This document shows positions 43,018 to 52,016 of a stretch of DNA of 64,000 bases, piece by piece. The stretch comes from Alphaproteobacteria bacterium (GTDB lineage Bacteria; Pseudomonadota; Alphaproteobacteria; Caulobacterales; Hyphomonadaceae). Position 1 is the first letter of the stretch; every line of letters begins with the position of its first letter. The notes beneath the pieces are model-generated. The model was not told the origin of the DNA. It was given only the letters and a program-made list of their open reading frames with translations, and ran no database searches. A program made the position numbers and the translations under genes. The stretch lies in assembly GCA_018827375.1 (NCBI GenBank), contig JAHJYW010000032.1, forward strand, positions 124,001 to 188,000, given 5' to 3'.

Positions 43018-44850
43018 ATGCACGCCTATCGCACCCATACATGTGGTGAACTTCGCAAGTCCCACGTGGGCGAAACCGTCAAATTGTCCGGCTGGTTGCA
43101 CCGCCGCCGCGAACATGCCGGTGCGCTGTTTATTGATCTGCGCGACCATTATGGCCTGACGCAGGTGGTGGTCCACCCGGGCGCGGCCTTCTATGAAGAC
43201 GCCAAGCGGGCCTCGGCCGAAAGCGTCCTGACAGTGACTGGCAAGTTGATCGCGCGCGATCCTGATGCGGCCAACCCCGAACTGCCCACGGGCGAAGTCG
43301 AATTGCCTGCCGATACGCTGATTATCGAGAGCGCCGCTGAAAAGCTGCCACTTCCTGTCTTTGCGGAGCCGGACTATCCGGAAGATATCCGCCTGAAGCA
43401 CCGCTATCTCGACCTGCGCCGCGAGACGCTGCACAAGAACATGATCCTGCGCAGCCAGGTCATCGCCAGCTTGCGCCAGCGCATGATCGCGCAGGGCTTC
43501 ACCGAATACCAGACGCCGATCCTGACGGCCTCCAGTCCGGAAGGCGCGCGCGACTTCCTCGTGCCGTCGCGCCTGCATCCCGGCGAGTTCTACGCACTGC
43601 CGCAGGCGCCGCAGCAGTTCAAACAATTGCTGATGGTGTCGGGCTTTGACCGCTACTTCCAGATCGCGCCATGTTTCCGCGATGAGGATGCGCGTGCTGA
43701 CCGTAGCCCTGGCGAGTTCTACCAGCTCGATATCGAAATGAGCTTTGTCACGCAGGATGACGTGTTCGGCGCGATTGAGCCGGTCATGCGCGGCGTGTTC
43801 GAGGAGTTCGCCAACTGGGAAGGCAAGGGACGTTCGGTCCCGGCTGAACCGTTCGTGCACATTCCCTACGCCGAATCGATGACGAAATACGGCTCCGACA
43901 AGCCTGACCTGCGTAACCCGTTGGAACTCTCAGATGTGACCGATTTCTTTGCGGATGAAAGCAAAACCGGTTTCAGCATCTTCGCGAAGATCATCAAGGG
44001 CGGGGGCAAGGTGATTGCCATTCCGGCGCCGAAGGCTGCGGCTGAAAAGTCCCGCAAGTTCTTCGATGACATGGACAAATGGGCCAAGAAAGAGATGCAG
44101 GCGCCGGGCCTCGGCTATGCGCGCCTGAAAGAGGCTGATGGCGGCGGTGTGGACAGTCAGGACCCCGTGCTCAAGGGTTTTGACGCGGGCCATCTGGCCG
44201 CACTGCTGGCGCATATGGGGCTTGGCGCCGGCGACGGCGTGTTCTTCTCGGCTGGCAAGAAATCCGACGCCTACAAACTGGCGGGCGCCGCCCGCAACGA
44301 ACTCGGCAAGTCGCTTGAGCTGATCGAAGAGGGCGTGTTCCGCTTCTGCTGGATCGTCGACTTTCCGATGTTCGAGTATGACGAAGACAACAAGAAGATC
44401 GACTTCAGCCACAACCCGTTCTCGATGCCGCAAGGCGGCATGGAGGCCCTGAACGCAGCCAAGACCGAGGAAGAGATCCTCGATATCAAGGCCTTCCAGT
44501 ATGACATTGTCTGTAACGGTATCGAACTGTCATCGGGTGCCATCCGGAACCACCGCCCCGAAGTGATGCTCAAGGCCTTTGAAATGGCAGGCTATGGCCC
44601 GGAAGTTGTCGAGGCCGAATTTGGCGGCATGCTGAACGCGTTCCGCTACGGCGCCCCGCCGCACGGCGGCATCGCACCAGGCGTCGACCGGATCGTCATG
44701 CTGCTGGCAGATGCCGAGAATATCCGGGATGTCACTCTGTTCCCGATGAATGGCCAGGCACGCGACCTGTTGATGGGGGCACCGAGCCCTGTCGACGACA
44801 AGCAGCTGAAAGAGCTGAACATCCGTATGGCGCCTCAGGTTAAATCCTGA
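43018..44850 (+). CDS. aspS: Aspartyl-tRNA synthetase (bacterial type)
   Basis: 610 residues. N-terminal OB-fold anticodon domain ([25 protein letters not shown]). Class II catalytic motifs: motif 2 [26 protein letters not shown] and motif 3 [13 protein letters not shown]. The GAD insertion lies at about residues 290-420. The family includes discriminating and non-discriminating forms; since gatB-like remnants occur in this window, the genome probably has GatCAB and a non-discriminating enzyme, but this is inference. A hairpin spans the stop codon. Confidence 0.97.
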
Positions 44851-44924: not shown

Positions 44925-45668
44925 TTATTGCGCTGTGGCGCTCGCCATGATGACGTCGCCGCACAGCGGCAGAAGCAGGCCGGGCGGCATCAGCGTGTCG
45001 ATGGAGCTGCAGGCGCCCTCGAAATTCGCCAGATCGTGATGGGTCATGCCCGAGAGGTCGGCCCCGATGAAGCGCACATCCCGGAACGAGGCACCGGCGA
45101 CATCCGCGCCGGTCATCACGACGCCGGTCATGTTAGCGCCATTGAGGATCGTGGCCTTCATCACGGCCTTGTCGAACTTCACGCCGGTCAGGTTCGCGCC
45201 GGAAAGGTCGGCGCCATCAAGTTGCGTTTCGCCAAAGTCGGCATCGGAGCAATTGGCACCAACCATCAGGGCGCCCTGCATGTTGGCGCCGCGCAGGATG
45301 GACTTGCGGAACTCGGCGCCCGAAGCCTGAATATTCATCAGGCGGGCATTGGTCAGGATGGCGTCGGAGAAATGGGCGGCTGTCAGCAAGGCCATGCGCA
45401 GGTCCACGCCGGAGGCATTTGTGCCTTCGAAATTGGTGCTGGTGGCCTGGATGCCGCGCATGAAGGCGAATTCGAGATTGGCGCCGCGATAATTGGCGCC
45501 GCTGAGAGTCCAGCCCGACATGTTACGGCCAGCGAGATTGCATTCCCCGCATGAGCCGACATAGCCGGGCTGCCACGCGACGGGCTTGCTCTGTGCCACA
45601 GCGGGAAAGGTCGCGCCCAGGAGCGCGATCACGGCAGGCAAAATCAGGCGAAACGGCATACCAGTCAT
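44925..45668 (-). CDS. Exported pentapeptide-repeat protein
   Basis: 247 residues. Signal peptide MTGMPFRLILPAVIALLGATFPAVAQ; a start at the second ATG (45659) is also possible. A cysteine pair (CGECNLAGRNMSG) is followed by about 30 A(D/N)Lxx-type pentapeptides such as ANLTGVKFDKAVMKATILNGANMTGV, which fold as a right-handed quadrilateral beta-helix. It ends in a Cys-containing tail (CSSIDTLMPPGLLLPLCG). Since it is exported, a role like the DNA-mimic Qnr proteins is unlikely; a structural or adhesive role in the periplasm is more plausible. It stands 75 bases from aspS and is convergent with it. Confidence 0.88.
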   Translation of the reverse strand: MTGMPFRLILPAVIALLGATFPAVAQSKPVAWQPGYVGSCGECNLAGRNMSGWTLSGANYRGANLEFAFMRGIQATSTNFEGTNASGVDLRMALLTAAHFSDAILTNARLMNIQASGAEFRKSILRGANMQGALMVGANCSDADFGETQLDGADLSGANLTGVKFDKAVMKATILNGANMTGVVMTGADVAGASFRDVRFIGADLSGMTHHDLANFEGACSSIDTLMPPGLLLPLCGDVIMASATAQ

Positions 45669-45809: not shown

Positions 45810-48053
45810 TTATCGTGAGATGCGGCCTTCTTCGCCACATGTGTCACAGGCTGTGTCACCATCCTCACCGACAGCGAAGAGGGTGAAGCTGCCACAGGCT
45901 TCACAGCCCTGTTCGAGATAGGGAGGGGGCGCGAGTTCTTCGGATTCGTCATCCATGTCCGATTCGGCCTGTTTCTCGGCGCGGCGTTTGTCGAGGATGA
46001 CGATATTGTCGGGCAGCTGGCCCCGCGAAAAGCCGCGCGAGATGATCTGGGCGGCTTCCTCGGTAAAGGGGGCAGGCTCGCGTGTGGCATCGCCTGCGCC
46101 GCGGCCAAGGCCGTCATGCGTGACATCGGCTTCGGCAAGGTCGTCGCGGCCGAGATAGGACACGGCCAGTTCGCGGAAGATATAGTCGAGAATGGATGTG
46201 GCGCGGGTGATGCGGTCATTGCCCGTGACCTGGCCGGCCGGCTCGAAACGGGTGAACACGAAGGCGTCGACGAATTCCTCCAGCGGCACGCCGTATTGCA
46301 GACCGATCGACGTAGCGATGGCGAAATTGTTCATCAGGCTGCGAAAGGCTGCCCCTTCCTTGTGCATGTCGAGGAAGATCTCGCCGAGCTGGCCGTCATC
46401 GAACTCGCCGGTGTGCAGGTAGACCTTGTGGCCGCCGACAGTGGCTTTCTGGATATAGCCCTTGCGGCGGTCAGGCAGGCGCGTGCGGGCCGCGCTGCGG
46501 GCCTCTGTGAACTCAGGAGCGACATGCTGGGGCGCATCGGCCTCGTCAGCCAGTTCTTCGGCGAGGGAGAGGATGTGTTCCATCCGGTCGCGCACATCGT
46601 CGCCCGGTGGGGAGCGGTGGCCCATGAGGTGGGCCGAAAGACCGCCGTTGGTGATGGCTTCGGCCATGTCGAGGCCCGCACGGGCGCTGACCGGCACCAC
46701 GACCCCGCCGCCGAGCACCTTGTTGCAGGCTGCAGCGAAGCGGATCTCGTCCTCGGCCGAGACATCGAGAATGAAGCCGCATTCCTGCAGTGCGCGAGAG
46801 GCAAGCGCCTCGCCGGCGCCGTCAATGGCGGCCTCGGCCTTGGCGATGTCGGTGCGGGAGAAGCCCATGGCCGAGAGGACGCCGCGGCCGTCGGCGTCGA
46901 AGTTCTCCGGCGTGAGTTTCAGGTCGTGCGAGATGATCTCGTCGCCCAGCACCCAGCGGGAGAAGGCGGCATTGAGCGGCAGGCCTTCACCGAGGGCGCG
47001 GCTGACACGCTCAAGCGCGGCTTCAGTGAAGCCACGGTCGCGCAGGCGGGCTGTGCCGAGGGAGGTTTCAAGGTCCTGGGCACCGGCATGGATGATCTGT
47101 TCGAGTACGCCGGGCAGGGCTTCAGGTGCGCGTGCGGCGAGGCCGAGGCGGGCCGCGCGGGTGAGGCTGGGAGCGTCGTCGCCATAGGTGAGCACGGCGC
47201 GGACGGGGGCGGCCGCATCGCTTTCGCATTCCGGCAGGGCGATCATCGGGTCTGCAATCGGCAGGATGAGAACCTGGCAGGCGCGCTTGCCGGATGCCTT
47301 GCGGGCCTGCAGGCCGAGCGGCTTGGCATGCGCTGCGCTGAAGGCCGATCCTGTCGCCGCCGCGCGGACAAGGGCGGTGAGCGCGGCGCCCGCAGCAATG
47401 CCGTCGTCTGAGCCATAGTCGAGGCCGAGAGCCATGACAGCGGCGCCAAGCCCCGTAAGGAGGATGACACCCTCCTTCATCCGGGCGGCGGCAGCCTCGA
47501 TGGCGGACACGAGGAAGCCGTCCTCAAAGCCATCCGGGCTGACGGCCTGTGCCACATCAACCACGCGCGCAGGTGTTGCGGCTGCCGGCAGGGCGGATTG
47601 GAGGAAGAAGACTTCGCCCCCTTCGCGTAAGGCAGCGAGAAGCGAGGGCTCAAGCGCCACATCCACGGGCGTGGCACTGAACACGGCAGGCGCCGGGGCG
47701 GGCGTATCCACGGCGGCAGCGCGCAGGGCATCTGCCGTGCGCAGGATGCCGCCCGGCAGGCGCAGGGCCTCTTCGAGAAGGTCCTGCGGCAGGCCGGAGG
47801 CGAGGGCTTCTGCCAGTTCGGCATTGCGTGGGGCGGGGCCGAGGCGTTCGAGCATTTCGGCGAGGGAGAGTTGAGACACACTCTGGAGGCTCGCGACCGA
47901 GGCAGCAGAGGCCAGATGGTCGAGCGCGTAGGGCGTCATGTCCTGCGGCGCGAGACCGGCGGCGCGGCAGAGGCGCCCAAACGGTATTTCGGAGGAGATC
48001 AGGCCATCTGATTCGGCGGCGGAGAGGATTTCGTCGAGGCTCTGGTCGGACAT
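45810..48053 (-). CDS. TSCPD-type protein resembling the C-terminal part of class II (B12) ribonucleotide reductase
   Basis: 747 residues. From residue 529 ([20 protein letters not shown]) to about 640 it follows the NrdJ tail: [74 protein letters not shown]. The end is a Cys4 zinc ribbon (C717, C720, C736, C739: CEACG..CDTCG), also as in NrdJ. The first 500 residues are alanine-rich and I cannot find the NrdJ catalytic cysteines or the N-x-C-x-E-x-P active-site signature. NrdJ is about 1200 residues, so this is at most the tail plus a divergent front. It may be a regulatory or DNA-binding paralogue. Monocistronic. Confidence 0.75.
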
Positions 48054-48404: not shown

Positions 48405-48797
48405 ATGCTCAAGCATATTTTCACCTGGTGGAGCGGGAATACCGTCGGCGCCAATTTCGACATCAAGCGGCGCAGCGGCTATGTCGGCACCGATGAATAC
48501 GGCAACAAGTATTTCGAGGAACGCAAGACGTCGCTCGAAGGCCGTCATCGCCGCTATGTCATGTACAAAGGGCTCGCCGAACCGTCTAAGGTTCCGGCTG
48601 ACTGGCATGGCTGGCTGCATCACACGGTGAATCAGCCGCCAACCCATATGCCGCTTGAGCGGCGCGACTGGGAAACCGACCACACACCAAACATGACCGG
48701 CACACCCTATGCCGTGAAGCCGAAAGGCAGCGTTGGCGCCAGCGGCGTGCGGCAGAAGTCAGACGGCGATTATGAGGCATGGACTCCCGATGCGTGA
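48405..48797 (+). CDS. NADH:ubiquinone oxidoreductase subunit NDUFA12-like
   Basis: 130 residues. It begins IFTWWSGNTVGANFDIKRRSG and carries VGTDEYGNKYFEERK, RRYVMYKGLAEPSKVPADWHGWLHHT, and PPTHMPLERRDWETDHTPNMTGTPYAVKPKGS, the whole pattern of the B17.2/NDUFA12 family. It is a supernumerary subunit of complex I in alphaproteobacteria and mitochondria. The end overlaps mlaD by 8 bases; the NDUFA12-mlaD-DUF2155 order is common in the class. Confidence 0.95.
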   Translation: MLKHIFTWWSGNTVGANFDIKRRSGYVGTDEYGNKYFEERKTSLEGRHRRYVMYKGLAEPSKVPADWHGWLHHTVNQPPTHMPLERRDWETDHTPNMTGTPYAVKPKGSVGASGVRQKSDGDYEAWTPDA

Positions 48798-49464
48798 ATC
48801 TCTCTTTGAAACCCTGGTCGGCTTTGTCGTTGTCGCGGTTGCAGGCGCTTTCCTGTGGTATTCGCTGGCTGTGGGCAGCACGGCCCAGGCGAGCGGTGAC
48901 CAATACAATGTGATCGCCCGCTTCAATAACGTGTCGGGCATTTCGCGCGGCTCTGACGTGCGGATCGCCGGCGTTAAGGCGGGTGTCGTGAAATCCATTG
49001 AAGGCGACCCTGAGCGCTTCGAGGCTGTACTGACGCTTTCGCTCGACAAGAAGTGGGAGCTGCCGGACGATACCGACGCCCGCATTTCGACCGATGGTCT
49101 TCTTGGCGGCAGCTATATCGGTCTGGAGCCTGGTGGCGGGTATGATTTCATTCCGCAGGATGGCACGGGCGAGATCCTGTACACGCGCGGCAGCGTTGAC
49201 CTGTTGACCCTGTTCGCCTCGTTCGCGGGCGGTGGTGGTGGCGATACGGCTGAAGAGCCTGCTGCGGCTGCAGAACCGGCGCCTGAACCTGCGCCGGAGC
49301 CAAAGCCAGCACCAAAACCGGTACCAAAGAAGCAGCCCGCACCTGAAAAAGCGCCTGAGCCTGCCATGGCTCCGGCAGCGGACAGCGAACCTGCAGCAGC
49401 TGACCCTTCCCCGGCACCAGCTGACGACCCATATCCCGCACCTGATGGAGACGACGGTCAATGA
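48790..49464 (+). CDS. mlaD: Outer-membrane lipid asymmetry protein MlaD (MCE domain)
   Basis: 224 residues from the ATG at 48790 (MRESLFETLVGFVVVAVAGAF). One transmembrane helix (residues 6-24) is followed by the MCE domain: YNVIARFNNVSGISRGSDVRIAGVKAG and DARISTDGLLGGSYIGLEPGG. After the domain there is a tail of about 75 residues made of Ala-Pro-Glu-Lys units, longer than in most MlaD proteins. MlaD forms a hexameric ring that carries phospholipids between the membranes; the partner ATPase and permease genes are not in this window. It overlaps NDUFA12 by 8 bases and the DUF2155 gene by 4. Confidence 0.93.
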   Translation: MRESLFETLVGFVVVAVAGAFLWYSLAVGSTAQASGDQYNVIARFNNVSGISRGSDVRIAGVKAGVVKSIEGDPERFEAVLTLSLDKKWELPDDTDARISTDGLLGGSYIGLEPGGGYDFIPQDGTGEILYTRGSVDLLTLFASFAGGGGGDTAEEPAAAAEPAPEPAPEPKPAPKPVPKKQPAPEKAPEPAMAPAADSEPAAADPSPAPADDPYPAPDGDDGQ

Positions 49465-49982
49465 TCCGATTCCTCGCCGCAACGGCCCTTGGACTTGGCC
49501 TCATCGGCGCAGCGCATGCTGCGACCTTTGTGCAGAAGGACAGGGCGACCTTGCGGGCGCTGGACAAGATTACCGGCCGGTCGACGGATATCGAAGTGAA
49601 GGTGGGCCAGCCGGTCGTATTCGGCTCGCTGAAGGTTGAGCTGAAAGCCTGCTATCAGACGCCGCCTGAAGAGGCGCCCGAAAGCGCCGCCTTCCTGAAA
49701 GTCCATTCGACCCAGCCTGTGGCTGTGGAGACAATGGAAGCGGCTGTCGATGCCGGCGATGTCGAGACGACGAGCGAAGACAATCCCGAACTGTTTTCCG
49801 GCTGGATGTATGCATCGACGCCGGGCCTCAGCGCCCTGGAGCACCCGGTCTATGACGTCTGGGTGATCCGCTGTACGGCGACGGACCCGGTGAAGCTGCC
49901 AGAGCGTAATACGGCGCCATCCGACGAGCCGATGATCGACGACGAGCCGCCATCGCTCGATACCGAACCAACACCGGAATAG
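49461..49982 (+). CDS. DUF2155 domain protein, exported
   Basis: 173 residues. Signal peptide MIRFLAATALGLGLIGAAHA. Then RATLRALDKITGRSTDIEVKVGQPVVFGSLKVELKACYQTPPEE, a hallmark of DUF2155, and the C-terminal FSGWMYASTPGLSALEHPVYDVWVIRC. The family core ends at about residue 137; the last 36 residues are acidic and disordered and are encoded in the DNA that the convergent aat gene also uses. The function is unknown. Starts on the mlaD stop (4-base overlap). Confidence 0.9.
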   Translation: MIRFLAATALGLGLIGAAHAATFVQKDRATLRALDKITGRSTDIEVKVGQPVVFGSLKVELKACYQTPPEEAPESAAFLKVHSTQPVAVETMEAAVDAGDVETTSEDNPELFSGWMYASTPGLSALEHPVYDVWVIRCTATDPVKLPERNTAPSDEPMIDDEPPSLDTEPTPE

Positions 49983-50572
49983 AAGTCGCCCTCGACGGTC
50001 AGGGCGGCGCGCAGGCGGGCCTTGAAGTCAGCGCGCGGTATTTCGATCAGGCCGAACTGTTCCAGATGCGGGTTGTGGAATTGCGCATCGAGCAGCGTAT
50101 ACCCGCCAGCGATCAGACGCGCCGCGAGATGCACCAGCGCAATTTTTGATGCGTCGGTAGCGCGGGAGAACATGCTCTCGCCGAAAAAGGCGCCTCCCAC
50201 CGAAACCCCATAGAGACCACCGACGAGGCGGTCGCCGTCCCAGCATTCGATCGAGTGGGCGTGGCCTTCGCGGTGCAGTGCGCTGTAAAGATTGAGGATT
50301 GCGGAGTTTATCCAGGTGCTTTCGCGGCCGTCAGTTTCCTCGCCGCAGAATTCCATGACGCGCGTGAACGCGGTGTCGGCAGTGACGCGGAACGGATCGC
50401 GGCTGACAGTCCGCTTCAGGCGGCGCGGGATATGGAAGGCGTCCAGCGGAAGGATGCCCCGCATGTCGGGGTCAACGAGGAACAGATTGGGGTCGTCACG
50501 CGAGTCCGCCATGGGGAAGACGCCCCGGCGATAGCAGGCGAGCAGGTCCTGTGTTCCGAAACGCGATGACAT
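49850..50572 (-). CDS. aat: Leucyl/phenylalanyl-tRNA--protein transferase
   Basis: 240 residues. Family core: LLACYRRGVFPMAD, FLVDPDMRGILPLDAFHIPRRLKRTV, GHAHSIECWDGDRLVGGLYGVSVGGAFFGESMFSRATDASKIAL, and LLDAQFHNPHLEQFGLIEIPRADFKARL. It attaches Leu or Phe to N-terminal Lys/Arg, marking proteins for ClpAP. The core ends near residue 195, and the remaining 40 residues (Ser/Gly/Val rich) overlap the tail of the DUF2155 gene by 133 bases, tail to tail. It is the last gene after aroQ-accB-accC. Confidence 0.94.
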   Translation of the reverse strand: MSSRFGTQDLLACYRRGVFPMADSRDDPNLFLVDPDMRGILPLDAFHIPRRLKRTVSRDPFRVTADTAFTRVMEFCGEETDGRESTWINSAILNLYSALHREGHAHSIECWDGDRLVGGLYGVSVGGAFFGESMFSRATDASKIALVHLAARLIAGGYTLLDAQFHNPHLEQFGLIEIPRADFKARLRAALTVEGDFYSGVGSVSSDGGSSSIIGSSDGAVLRSGSFTGSVAVQRITQTS

Positions 50573-50645
50573 GGCCGGAATATGAGTCCCTCAGGCGCGC
50601 CTGTCCATGGGGCAGACGGCGCCAGCTGCCTACAAGGCCTGCGAC

Positions 50646-52016
50646 CTATTCGGCGGGCAGCTTGTTTTCCGCGAGGAATTTTTCCAGCCAGTGGATGTTG
50701 TATTCACCCGCGAGGACATCATCGTTCTCGACGAGCCGACGATGCAGGTCCAGCGTGGTGTAAACACCGCCAACAACCATTTCCGACAGCGCACGGCGCA
50801 GGCGCATGATGCATTCGCGGCGTGTGCGGCCATGAACGATGAGCTTGCCAATCAGCGAGTCGTAATAGGGCGGGATGCGGTAACCGGCATAGGCCGCGCT
50901 ATCGAGGCGCACGTCAGGACCGCCCGGCGCGTGGAAATCCGTGATCAGGCCGGGTGAGGGCACGAAGGTTTCCGGGTGCTCGGCGTTGATGCGGCACTCG
51001 ATGGCATGGCCAACGAGCATCACGTCTTCCTGGCGGAAGGAGAGCTTCTTGCCCTCGGCAATGCGGATCTGCTCGCGCACAAGGTCGATGCCGGTGATCA
51101 TCTCGGTGACCGGGTGTTCGACCTGGAGACGGGTGTTCATTTCAATGAAGTAGAACTTGCCGTCTTCGTAGAGGAATTCGATCGTGCCGGCGCCCCGATA
51201 GCCAAGCTTTTTCATGGCCTTGGCGCAGATGTTGCCGATTTCTTCGCGCTGGGCCTGGTTGAGGGCGGGCGAAGGGGCCTCTTCGAGGACCTTCTGGTTG
51301 CGGCGCTGCAGCGAGCAGTCGCGCTCCCAGAGGTGCGCCACGTTGCCGTGCGTATCGGCAATGATCTGGACTTCGATATGGCGCGGGCCTTCGAGGTATT
51401 TCTCGAGATAGACGGCATCGTCGCCAAACGCGGCCTTGGCCTCGGTCTTGGCTGTCTTCACCGCGTTTTCGAGGTCGGCCTCGGTGCGGGCGAGCTTCAT
51501 GCCGCGGCCACCGCCGCCTGCAGAGGCCTTCACGAGAACCGGGAAGCCGATCTTCTTGGCGGCCTTCTTCGCGTCAGCAATCGAGGCAAGGGCGCCTTCG
51601 GAACCGGGCACGCAAGGCACGCCGGCTTCGATCATCGCGACCTTGGCGGCAATCTTGTCGCCCATGATGCGGATATGCTCGGCCGTCGGGCCGATGAAGG
51701 CGAGGCCGTGGGCTTCGACCATTTCGGCGAACTGGGCGTTCTCTGACAGGAAGCCGTAGCCGGGGTGGATCGCGTCGGCGCCGGTGATTTCGGCAGCGGC
51801 CAGGATCTGGGATTTCTTGAGATAGCTCTCCGAAGAAGGCGGCGGGCCGATGCAAACGCTCTCATCGGCCAGGCGCACGGCCATGGCGTCGCGGTCGGCC
51901 GTGGAATGGACGACGACCGTCATAAGGCCCATTTCCTTGCAGGCGCGGTGGATTCGCAGGGCAATCTCGCCGCGATTGGCGATCAGGACCTTCTTGATCG
52001 TGCGGGGCTCAGTCAT
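50646..52016 (-). CDS. accC: Acetyl-CoA carboxylase, biotin carboxylase subunit
   Basis: 456 residues. N-terminal [24 protein letters not shown]-grasp loop [77 protein letters not shown], and [12 protein letters not shown]. It carboxylates the biotin on AccB with bicarbonate and ATP, the first step of fatty acid synthesis. One base separates its start from the accB stop. Confidence 0.97.

Follow-up and report, generated by a model that had tools for sequence, protein, structure and literature searches.

We analysed a 64,000-nucleotide stretch of an alphaproteobacterial genome (positions 124,001 to 188,000 of contig JAHJYW010000032.1, assembly GCA_018827375.1), called the window in the following, and focus on one of its open reading frames, which encodes a protein of 747 residues (Table 1). 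A preliminary description had presented this protein as the tail of a class II ribonucleotide reductase (NrdJ) without a reductase. The host genome (G000; handles with G, C, L and f denote genomes, contigs, loci and families) has a size of 3.63 Mb, is 99.9% complete and belongs in or next to Hyphomonas, with 95% identity to a contig of H. chukchiensis.

Table 1. Features of the window at and around the 747-residue protein (positions of the window)
Feature	Coordinates	Strand	Remarks
Motif-less NrdJ pseudoenzyme, 747 residues	45810..48053	minus	ATG start; one stop, at the end; sole TSCPD match in the genome
Residues 1-515: decayed catalytic barrel and helical region, active-site motif not recognisable	46509..48053	minus	Alignment, model
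Residues 326-515: helical region of long NrdJ, partly conserved, includes GFSRTDI	46509..47078	minus	
Residues 523-640: core of the C-terminal cysteine-rich domain (CRD, TSCPD), conserved, retained	46134..46487	minus	Alignment, dN/dS
Residues 641-712: linker, mostly of low confidence in the model	45918..46133	minus	pLDDT <50 at 642-707
Residues 717-740: Cys4 zinc-type ribbon without redox pair	45834..45905	minus	Alignment and cysteine roles of PMC5704485
Pentapeptide-repeat neighbour, not part of the pseudoenzyme	44925..45668	minus	Pfam PF00805, E 6.5e-35
aspS-like neighbour, one edge of the conserved locus	43018..44850	plus	Position conserved
NDUFA12 homologue, bounds the conserved locus on the opposite side	48405..48797	plus	Pfam PF05071, E 3.6e-25
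MlaD-like, DUF2155-like, aat-like and accC-like neighbours, synteny markers	48781..52016		

The tail of the protein is well recognisable. The Pfam domain TSCPD (PF12637) matches residues 535-630 (E-value 6e-10; 39.7 bits against a gathering cut-off of 22.8), and the blocks of the NrdJ C-terminus quoted in the preliminary description are indeed present, starting at residues 540 (counted from the first G of the block), 584 and 619. The terminal Cys4 ribbon described there is found as well, with cysteines 717, 720, 736 and 739 in a CxxC...CxxC arrangement; the zinc-ribbon model of Pfam matches at 717-741, far below its cut-off. No catalytic motif had been seen before, and the NPC[GS]E active-site motif is absent from the protein. 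Furthermore, PF02867 gives no match to it at E<=10. When comparing the protein to the NCBIfam model of the long class II NrdJ (PRK07562/NF005736, a NrdJ of 1222 residues), we find three matching stretches, the best of which covers residues 498-701 (E-value 4.3e-89). The score of the whole frame is 299.5 bits compared to an equivalog cut-off of 1737. We take this long NrdJ to be the type labelled NrdJd. The N-terminal part is rich in alanine, as reported (20% in residues 1-520 compared to 11% in the remainder).

A genome-wide profile search detected no second TSCPD match in G000, and PF02867 matches two pieces of a single class I NrdA on contig C2 (L199:5517-7385, 622 residues, C-terminus ECLACQ). 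The full-length nrdJ that the preliminary description proposed to look for elsewhere in the genome was not found by these searches. One NrdB is present, and Pfam detected no ATP-cone on the Hyphomonas NrdA. Judging from these profiles, we conclude that G000 carries a class II tail without a class II reductase and that its sole recognisable reductase is the class I enzyme of NrdA and NrdB.

To place the protein among its relatives, we use 'order' for the grouping that unites Caulobacteraceae with Hyphomonas; NCBI gives Hyphomonadaceae an order of its own. A TSCPD match occurs in 283 of the 299 genomes of this order. In a first set of 111 related frames, the uncut frames of at least 1170 residues carry an [ST]NPCSEY-type site. 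The uncut frames of 713-981 residues, from Hyphomonas, Henriciella, Peiella, metagenome-assembled genomes of Caulobacteraceae and others, have no such site, and neither do five cut frames. A frame of 470 residues with a NrdJ-type tail and no site (L023) seems to be a fragment of a gene that has the motif. A second set comprises 55 frames of the order: ten are long and have NPCSE, ten are short (740-848 residues) and have NPCGE, and 35 have neither motif, with lengths of up to 1188 residues.

We then aligned 46 motif-less rows (45 distinct proteins) to 20 long NrdJ proteins, which are the ten long frames of the order and ten further long frames, all with the motif. Conservation was scored in blocks of 25 columns, numbered after a NrdJ of 1237 residues. 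Some motif-less frames (e.g. L004, L005, L144 and L150) do not belong to the 46 rows. The proteins of L083 and L165 are identical; through this identity, G126 is connected with Peiella sedimenti and f2 with Caulobacteraceae. The radical-site motif NPC[GS]E is found in none of the 46 motif-less rows, and it is present in all ten long and all ten short NrdJ frames of the order and in the ten further long frames. Across positions 151-750, each block with at least six conserved columns is only 1-37% identical at the NrdJ-conserved columns, with 1-13% in blocks 151-325 and 5% in block 476-500, the home of the NPCSE site. Positions 176-250, where we would expect the first active-site cysteine, are occupied in 4-12% of the motif-less rows. 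The exceptions are two blocks within 326-375, which have one and four conserved columns and reach 89% and 72%. Identity is 36-77% in the helical blocks 751-850 and 91-99% in the blocks of the CRD core (976-1100). N-terminal of the CRD, the sole invariant columns among 38 aligned proteins are L337, G341, G370, L393 and G412. A phmmer search connects the helical region to residues 746-824 of 7b9q, weakly (E-value 0.32).

The alignment thus qualifies the earlier statement that the first 500 residues are divergent: they are barely recognisable, but they are not unrelated to NrdJ, being its decayed barrel and helical region. The view of a tail without a working reductase stands. We regard the anatomy of a dead reductase kept for its tail as secure. 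The protein resembles the long NrdJ in sharing the locus of many of its members, the CRD core, the zinc-type cysteines and a residual barrel and helical region, whereas it is a pseudoenzyme without the NPCSE motif and without the redox cysteine pair.

The cysteines of the tail follow the same division. In the NrdJ of S. nassauensis, Cys-920, -923, -936 and -939 were assigned to zinc, and Cys-933 and -945 were proposed as the pair for electron transfer (Loderer et al. 2017, PMC5704485); the C939A variant kept zinc in the authors' data. All six cysteines are present in 20/20 long NrdJ. Among the motif-less rows, the four zinc-type columns hold cysteine in 45 of 46 (44 of 45 distinct proteins; the exception, L021, has no ribbon), whereas the redox-pair columns hold cysteine in none of the 46 (none of 45 distinct) and read D and I in the 747-residue protein. 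G268 encodes another motif-less protein, in which CxxC is missing altogether. Compared to the S. nassauensis enzyme, the pseudoenzyme thus follows the six-cysteine scheme at the four zinc positions and has lost the equivalents of Cys-933 and Cys-945. The electron relay has disappeared together with the active site, and most of the proteins retain the zinc site. This natural pattern of loss fits the zinc and redox roles that were published for the six cysteines.

As synteny markers, we took from the window NDUFA12 and the neighbours that we presume from their sequences to be aspS, MlaD-like, DUF2155-like, aat-like and accC-like genes, and we sought them at the 55 loci of the order. NDUFA12 lies nearby at 32/35 motif-less, 6/10 long NPCSE and 0/10 short NPCGE loci; for aspS, the numbers are 25/35, 2/10 and 0/10. 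The short NPCGE loci (L152, L157, L159, L160, L163, L164, L177, L178, L179 and L182) lie away from the conserved locus. No marker was found at the long NPCSE loci L188 (at a contig end), L195 and L198, nor at the motif-less locus L155, and the NrdJ loci of Robiginitomaculum have none either. Outside the order, markers are present in Emcibacter (L029, L045) and in a metagenome-assembled genome of Rhodospirillaceae (L054). Since the locus is common to the motif-less and the motif-bearing kind, the pseudoenzyme is the old long nrdJ, an orthologue decayed in place, and not the paralogue that the preliminary description had supposed.

Within the order, the decay may have happened once or several times. 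In the NrdA tree (38 rows), four changes are needed, and a single motif-less clade is rejected (approximately unbiased test, p 0.027). An earlier NrdA tree covered 45 of 48 genomes, with G030, G072 and G171 left out and G025, which has only a short NrdJ, labelled 'none'. The CRD tree places all 39 motif-less rows in one group, with weak support (86/53); G126, G033 and G058 were left out there.

The gene is kept in 25 of the 25 Hyphomonas genomes searched, and no internal stops occur among the matches listed. For seven pairs, we estimated the ratio of non-synonymous to synonymous substitution rates (dN/dS) with our own Nei-Gojobori script; the ribbon was not computable in three pairs. The ratio is 0-0.084 in the CRD core and 0.02-0.53 in the other segments, and residues 241-325 have the highest dN in six of the seven pairs. 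The gene is thus under purifying selection, strongly so in the CRD core, and does not look like a pseudogene. In two pairs only, the dS of the CRD core is low: 0.39 compared to 0.68-1.11 elsewhere in the gene (pair with L006), and 0.49 compared to 0.61-1.13 (pair with L005).

The tail is also found on its own. Across Alphaproteobacteria, 91 of 142 genomes have a match, of which 85, classed by length, lie in frames of 1128-1364 residues. The others are the frame of the window and five short ones, in G313 (282 residues), G402 (278), G331 (530), G404 (667) and G403 (852); the last is a NrdJ cut by a 3.4-kb contig. In G402 (L272), a frame of 272 residues lies between accC/DUF2155/NDUFA12 and aspS, and in G313 (L271), a frame of 278 residues adjoins NDUFA12. 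Both CRD-only frames thus occupy the conserved locus, and no NrdJ barrel sequence was found around them. G331 and G404 have decayed forms of 526 and 663 residues, more divergent in the CRD, near a gene that looks by eye like NDUFA12. All four genomes have class I NrdA. PF02867 matches nothing but class I NrdA in G000, G402, G313 and G331, and NrdA together with the genome's own decayed NrdJ frame in G404; the partner NrdJa of a split class II enzyme is thus absent.

Further genomes of the two orders extend this observation. In the order of G402 (68 genomes), 31 of 33 genomes of family f102 have a stand-alone CRD. Its order-mate family f143 has a match in 34 of 35 genomes, 32 of them in frames of 1180-1218 residues and the other two in frames of 343 and 315. 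PF02867 finds class I NrdA only in f102 (11/11) and long NrdJ only in f143 (6/6), and it finds NrdA in 5/6 genomes of f13; NrdB is present in 4/4, 0/3 and 3/4, respectively. Thus, across the class II to class I difference between these sister families, the reductase part is gone and the tail kept. The f102 genomes are 1.0-1.5 Mb in size, with single contigs and a GC content of 28-30% at three loci, and we infer that the family is SAR11-like (Pelagibacteraceae). In the order of G313, 27 of 32 genomes match, in frames of 172-301 residues. All ten orphans examined in the f13 group keep CxxC...CLTC and have no terminal cysteine; all ten in f102 are without CxxC.

We counted conserved CRD columns on distinct rows (49 motif-bearing, 49 motif-less, and nine orphans from each of the two groups). 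Motif-bearing NrdJ conserves 67 CRD columns at a level of 95% or more. Of these, 63 are kept in the motif-less proteins, 56 in f102, 62 in the f13 group and 50 in all three. Columns 563-571 are altered in f102, together with the loss of the ribbon, and are perhaps the surface under it. Since the three groups keep these columns with no class II catalysis of their own, the CRD core is held by something else than that catalysis, and the tail outlives it in at least three lineages.

Taken together, an ancestral long class II reductase probably decayed in place and its tail was kept for a second function. The control of ribonucleotide reductase is a classic subject, and oligomerisation and electron relay are established roles of the class II tail; here, the reductase and the relay cysteines are removed and the tail is kept in several lineages. 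A new role of the tail outside class II catalysis, as the preliminary description proposed, is very likely given that the CRD is kept in genomes with class I only, and the comparisons argue strongly for such a second function. The intact NrdJ would already have had this function in its CRD core, distinct from electron delivery and from class II catalysis, and it would be the reason why the gene survives. Control of dNTP synthesis or of replication is our guess for this role.

Class I offers one candidate target. The CRD of NrdJ drives oligomers that depend on dATP or dGTP, and an additional nucleotide site is suspected by the authors of that work (PMC5704485). In cells relying on class I NrdAB, the CRD might act on the deoxynucleotide supply. 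It could, for instance, be a subunit that responds to nucleotides by oligomerising or docking and would take over the activity control absent in a NrdA without ATP-cone. In none of the five CRD-bearing lineages tested (Hyphomonas and four others) did Pfam find an ATP-cone on NrdA, and a cone-less NrdA suggests a control subunit acting in trans. As a diagnostic of the CRD, the cone-less NrdA had to be rejected, since TSCPD-less genomes, compared by the length of NrdA, have a similar one. The link of the CRD to NrdA and NrdB is seen as co-occurrence only. That the CRD acts on the deoxynucleotide supply directly on NrdAB is possible but doubtful. Of a similarly low probability is the wider idea of an ancient tail with two jobs, which would serve class II catalysis and, acting in trans, would also control the supply of deoxynucleotides or the coupling of that supply to replication. 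If it holds, a change from the B12-dependent class II enzyme to class I would cost Alphaproteobacteria the reductase but not the tail. The Hyphomonas-Caulobacter group would retain it within a pseudoenzyme, and ocean bacteria of the SAR11-like kind would have it as a free protein of about 275 residues. Taken furthest, the idea would make this free CRD the missing dATP-sensing activity subunit of the cone-less class I NrdAB.

Alternatively, the CRD core may dock to another machine, such as the replication machinery, where it would originally have brought NrdJ, and be unrelated to class I. Conservation of the core columns is the same whether or not a class II enzyme is there, and the class I NrdA of TSCPD-less genomes is similar in length, as would fit this explanation. 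On two viral contigs, a separate CRD frame lies directly behind a DnaB-type helicase (L323:3974-4633) or a Toprim/DnaB_C primase-helicase (L360:3920-4543). However, phage replication modules commonly include reductase genes, and the gene order is a lead towards a putative contact between CRD and replication. Of the 80 frames on viral contigs, 44 have the motif and 17 are shorter than 600 residues; 11 of these 17, several of them near-copies, still end in the terminal-cysteine motif and may be split NrdJ tails of the NrdJb kind. Several other viral frames are long NrdJ in which the motif is probably split by an insert. In L326-L328, L343, L362 and others, the alignment of the catalytic part is broken near the active site by a gap of about 1 kb, presumably as with an intein. 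Among phages, three of five records are annotated, and among plasmids, seven of 17 have a gene named under the match; all of these are named reductase. We take a docking role to another machine seriously as a possibility, while leaning against it.

Several observations weigh against the reading of a decayed reductase kept for a second, possibly class I-related function of its tail. Some motif-less relatives (G104, G075, G268, G058, G132 and G404) still score above the cut-off of PF02867; therefore, the decay is graded among them. Four of the ten long motif-bearing loci have no NDUFA12 neighbour (one, L188, at a contig end). Furthermore, 16 of the 299 genomes of the order have no TSCPD match, and all eight of these that were checked keep a NrdA of similar frame length (584-733 residues). 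The second function is therefore dispensable, and a NrdA of such length does not by itself need a CRD. Among the CRD-only genomes, G541 (93% complete) shows neither NrdA nor NrdB, and G518 (f13; L306) has an extra PF02867 protein of 854 residues with an ATP-cone. The zinc ribbon is missing in G331, G404, ten f102 orphans, L021 and G268 and is therefore not essential to the retained role; a NPCSE-bearing long NrdJ frame from outside the alignment (L058) also ends before it. Lastly, VIA comparisons of the CRD model return chains of the IscU, SufU and SufE-like kinds (Z 3.3-4.8), but chains of no relation score about as high; these matches, including the best (Z 4.8, rmsd 3.5 over 89 residues), are too weak to rely on.

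The other explanations fare worse. A paralogue that regulates a class II reductase, as originally suggested, is very improbable, and for the host genome it is refuted: TSCPD and PF02867 searches found no class II enzyme there, and synteny shows orthology with the long NrdJ. In its favour, of the ten genomes that carry a short NrdJ of the NPCGE type, seven also have a motif-less protein (G255, G043, G002, G098, G126, G161 and G269); G123 and G132 have a second TSCPD match and G025 has none. A role on the class II reductase is conceivable in these genomes, but it cannot explain retention where no such enzyme exists.

Equally improbable is an electron shuttle that would reduce class I NrdA in trans. 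The NrdJ tail does relay electrons for its own reductase, also between subunits (PMC5704485), and P. aeruginosa has a class II enzyme in two polypeptides, of which NrdJb is the CRD and works with NrdJa by thiol-disulfide exchange (PMC4520616). The orphans of 272-278 residues are like NrdJb in being a CRD on its own polypeptide. However, there is no NrdJa here, the redox cysteines are gone from all 45 distinct motif-less proteins, and the terminal cysteine is found in none of 20 orphan CRDs; the 747-residue protein has four C-terminal cysteines and not six. The class I NrdA C-termini with uncut contig ends carry their own CxxC.

A decaying pseudogene on its way out can practically be dismissed. 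The barrel is lost, and frame lengths range from about 750 to over 1100 residues among the motif-less relatives. G236 (family f2) keeps the CRD in a frame of 432 residues with an unrelated-looking upstream part, but dN/dS stays below 0.54 in every computable segment and pair, the gene persists without visible stops as described above, and CRD-only forms are kept in very small genomes. G236 is a single-contig genome, and the upstream part at its locus (L172) looks like another reading frame; either a sequencing error or a natural shortened form would account for it. We likewise give hardly any credence to a reductase with a new, unrecognised active site: the N-terminal model weakly resembles NrdJ and its segments are under purifying selection, but the motif is missing in all 46 rows, residues 241-325 are the fastest-changing by dN, and CRD-only relatives have no barrel around the frame.

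The full-length structural model has a pLDDT of 76.9 and a pTM of 0.61, with pLDDT below 50 at residues 642-707. Its best Foldseek match is the R. sphaeroides NrdJ (7b9p; E-value 2.3e-7, with a TM of only 0.30). The CRD model gave nothing in Foldseek at E<=0.001, and by sequence, no solved relative of the CRD core was found, with only weak zinc-ribbon-like matches and the NrdJ helical region.

The finding bears on a model organism. In C. crescentus, CCNA_01966 is labelled NrdJ (PMC6538847) and a B12-dependent ribonucleotide reductase (PMC5869019). Seven genomes of the Caulobacter-sized genus g10 have frames of 872-956 residues. The motif is absent from the full frames of four (G183, G174, G079 and G277) and from the last 703-708 residues of the other three. 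Judged from these g10 relatives rather than from its own sequence, CCNA_01966 is probably the same pseudoenzyme and its reductase annotation wrong. A corrected annotation would affect the models of B12 dependency that it feeds, and a second function of the tail is testable by gene deletion in Caulobacter crescentus. Our search of open-licence PMC texts found no description of the pseudoenzyme or the orphan CRD in titles or the openings of abstracts.

Finally, two neighbours deserve mention. A small gene, which we take to be RidA-like, follows the CRD or the decayed NrdJ at three loci (L271:5573-6058, L273:5625-6086 and L274:4234-4695). In the window, the gene of the pentapeptide-repeat protein comes next after that of the pseudoenzyme, in the same orientation, and its product likely has a signal peptide (by eye). 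A pentapeptide-type match lies near many loci, motif-less and motif-bearing alike, and such repeat proteins cross-match easily.

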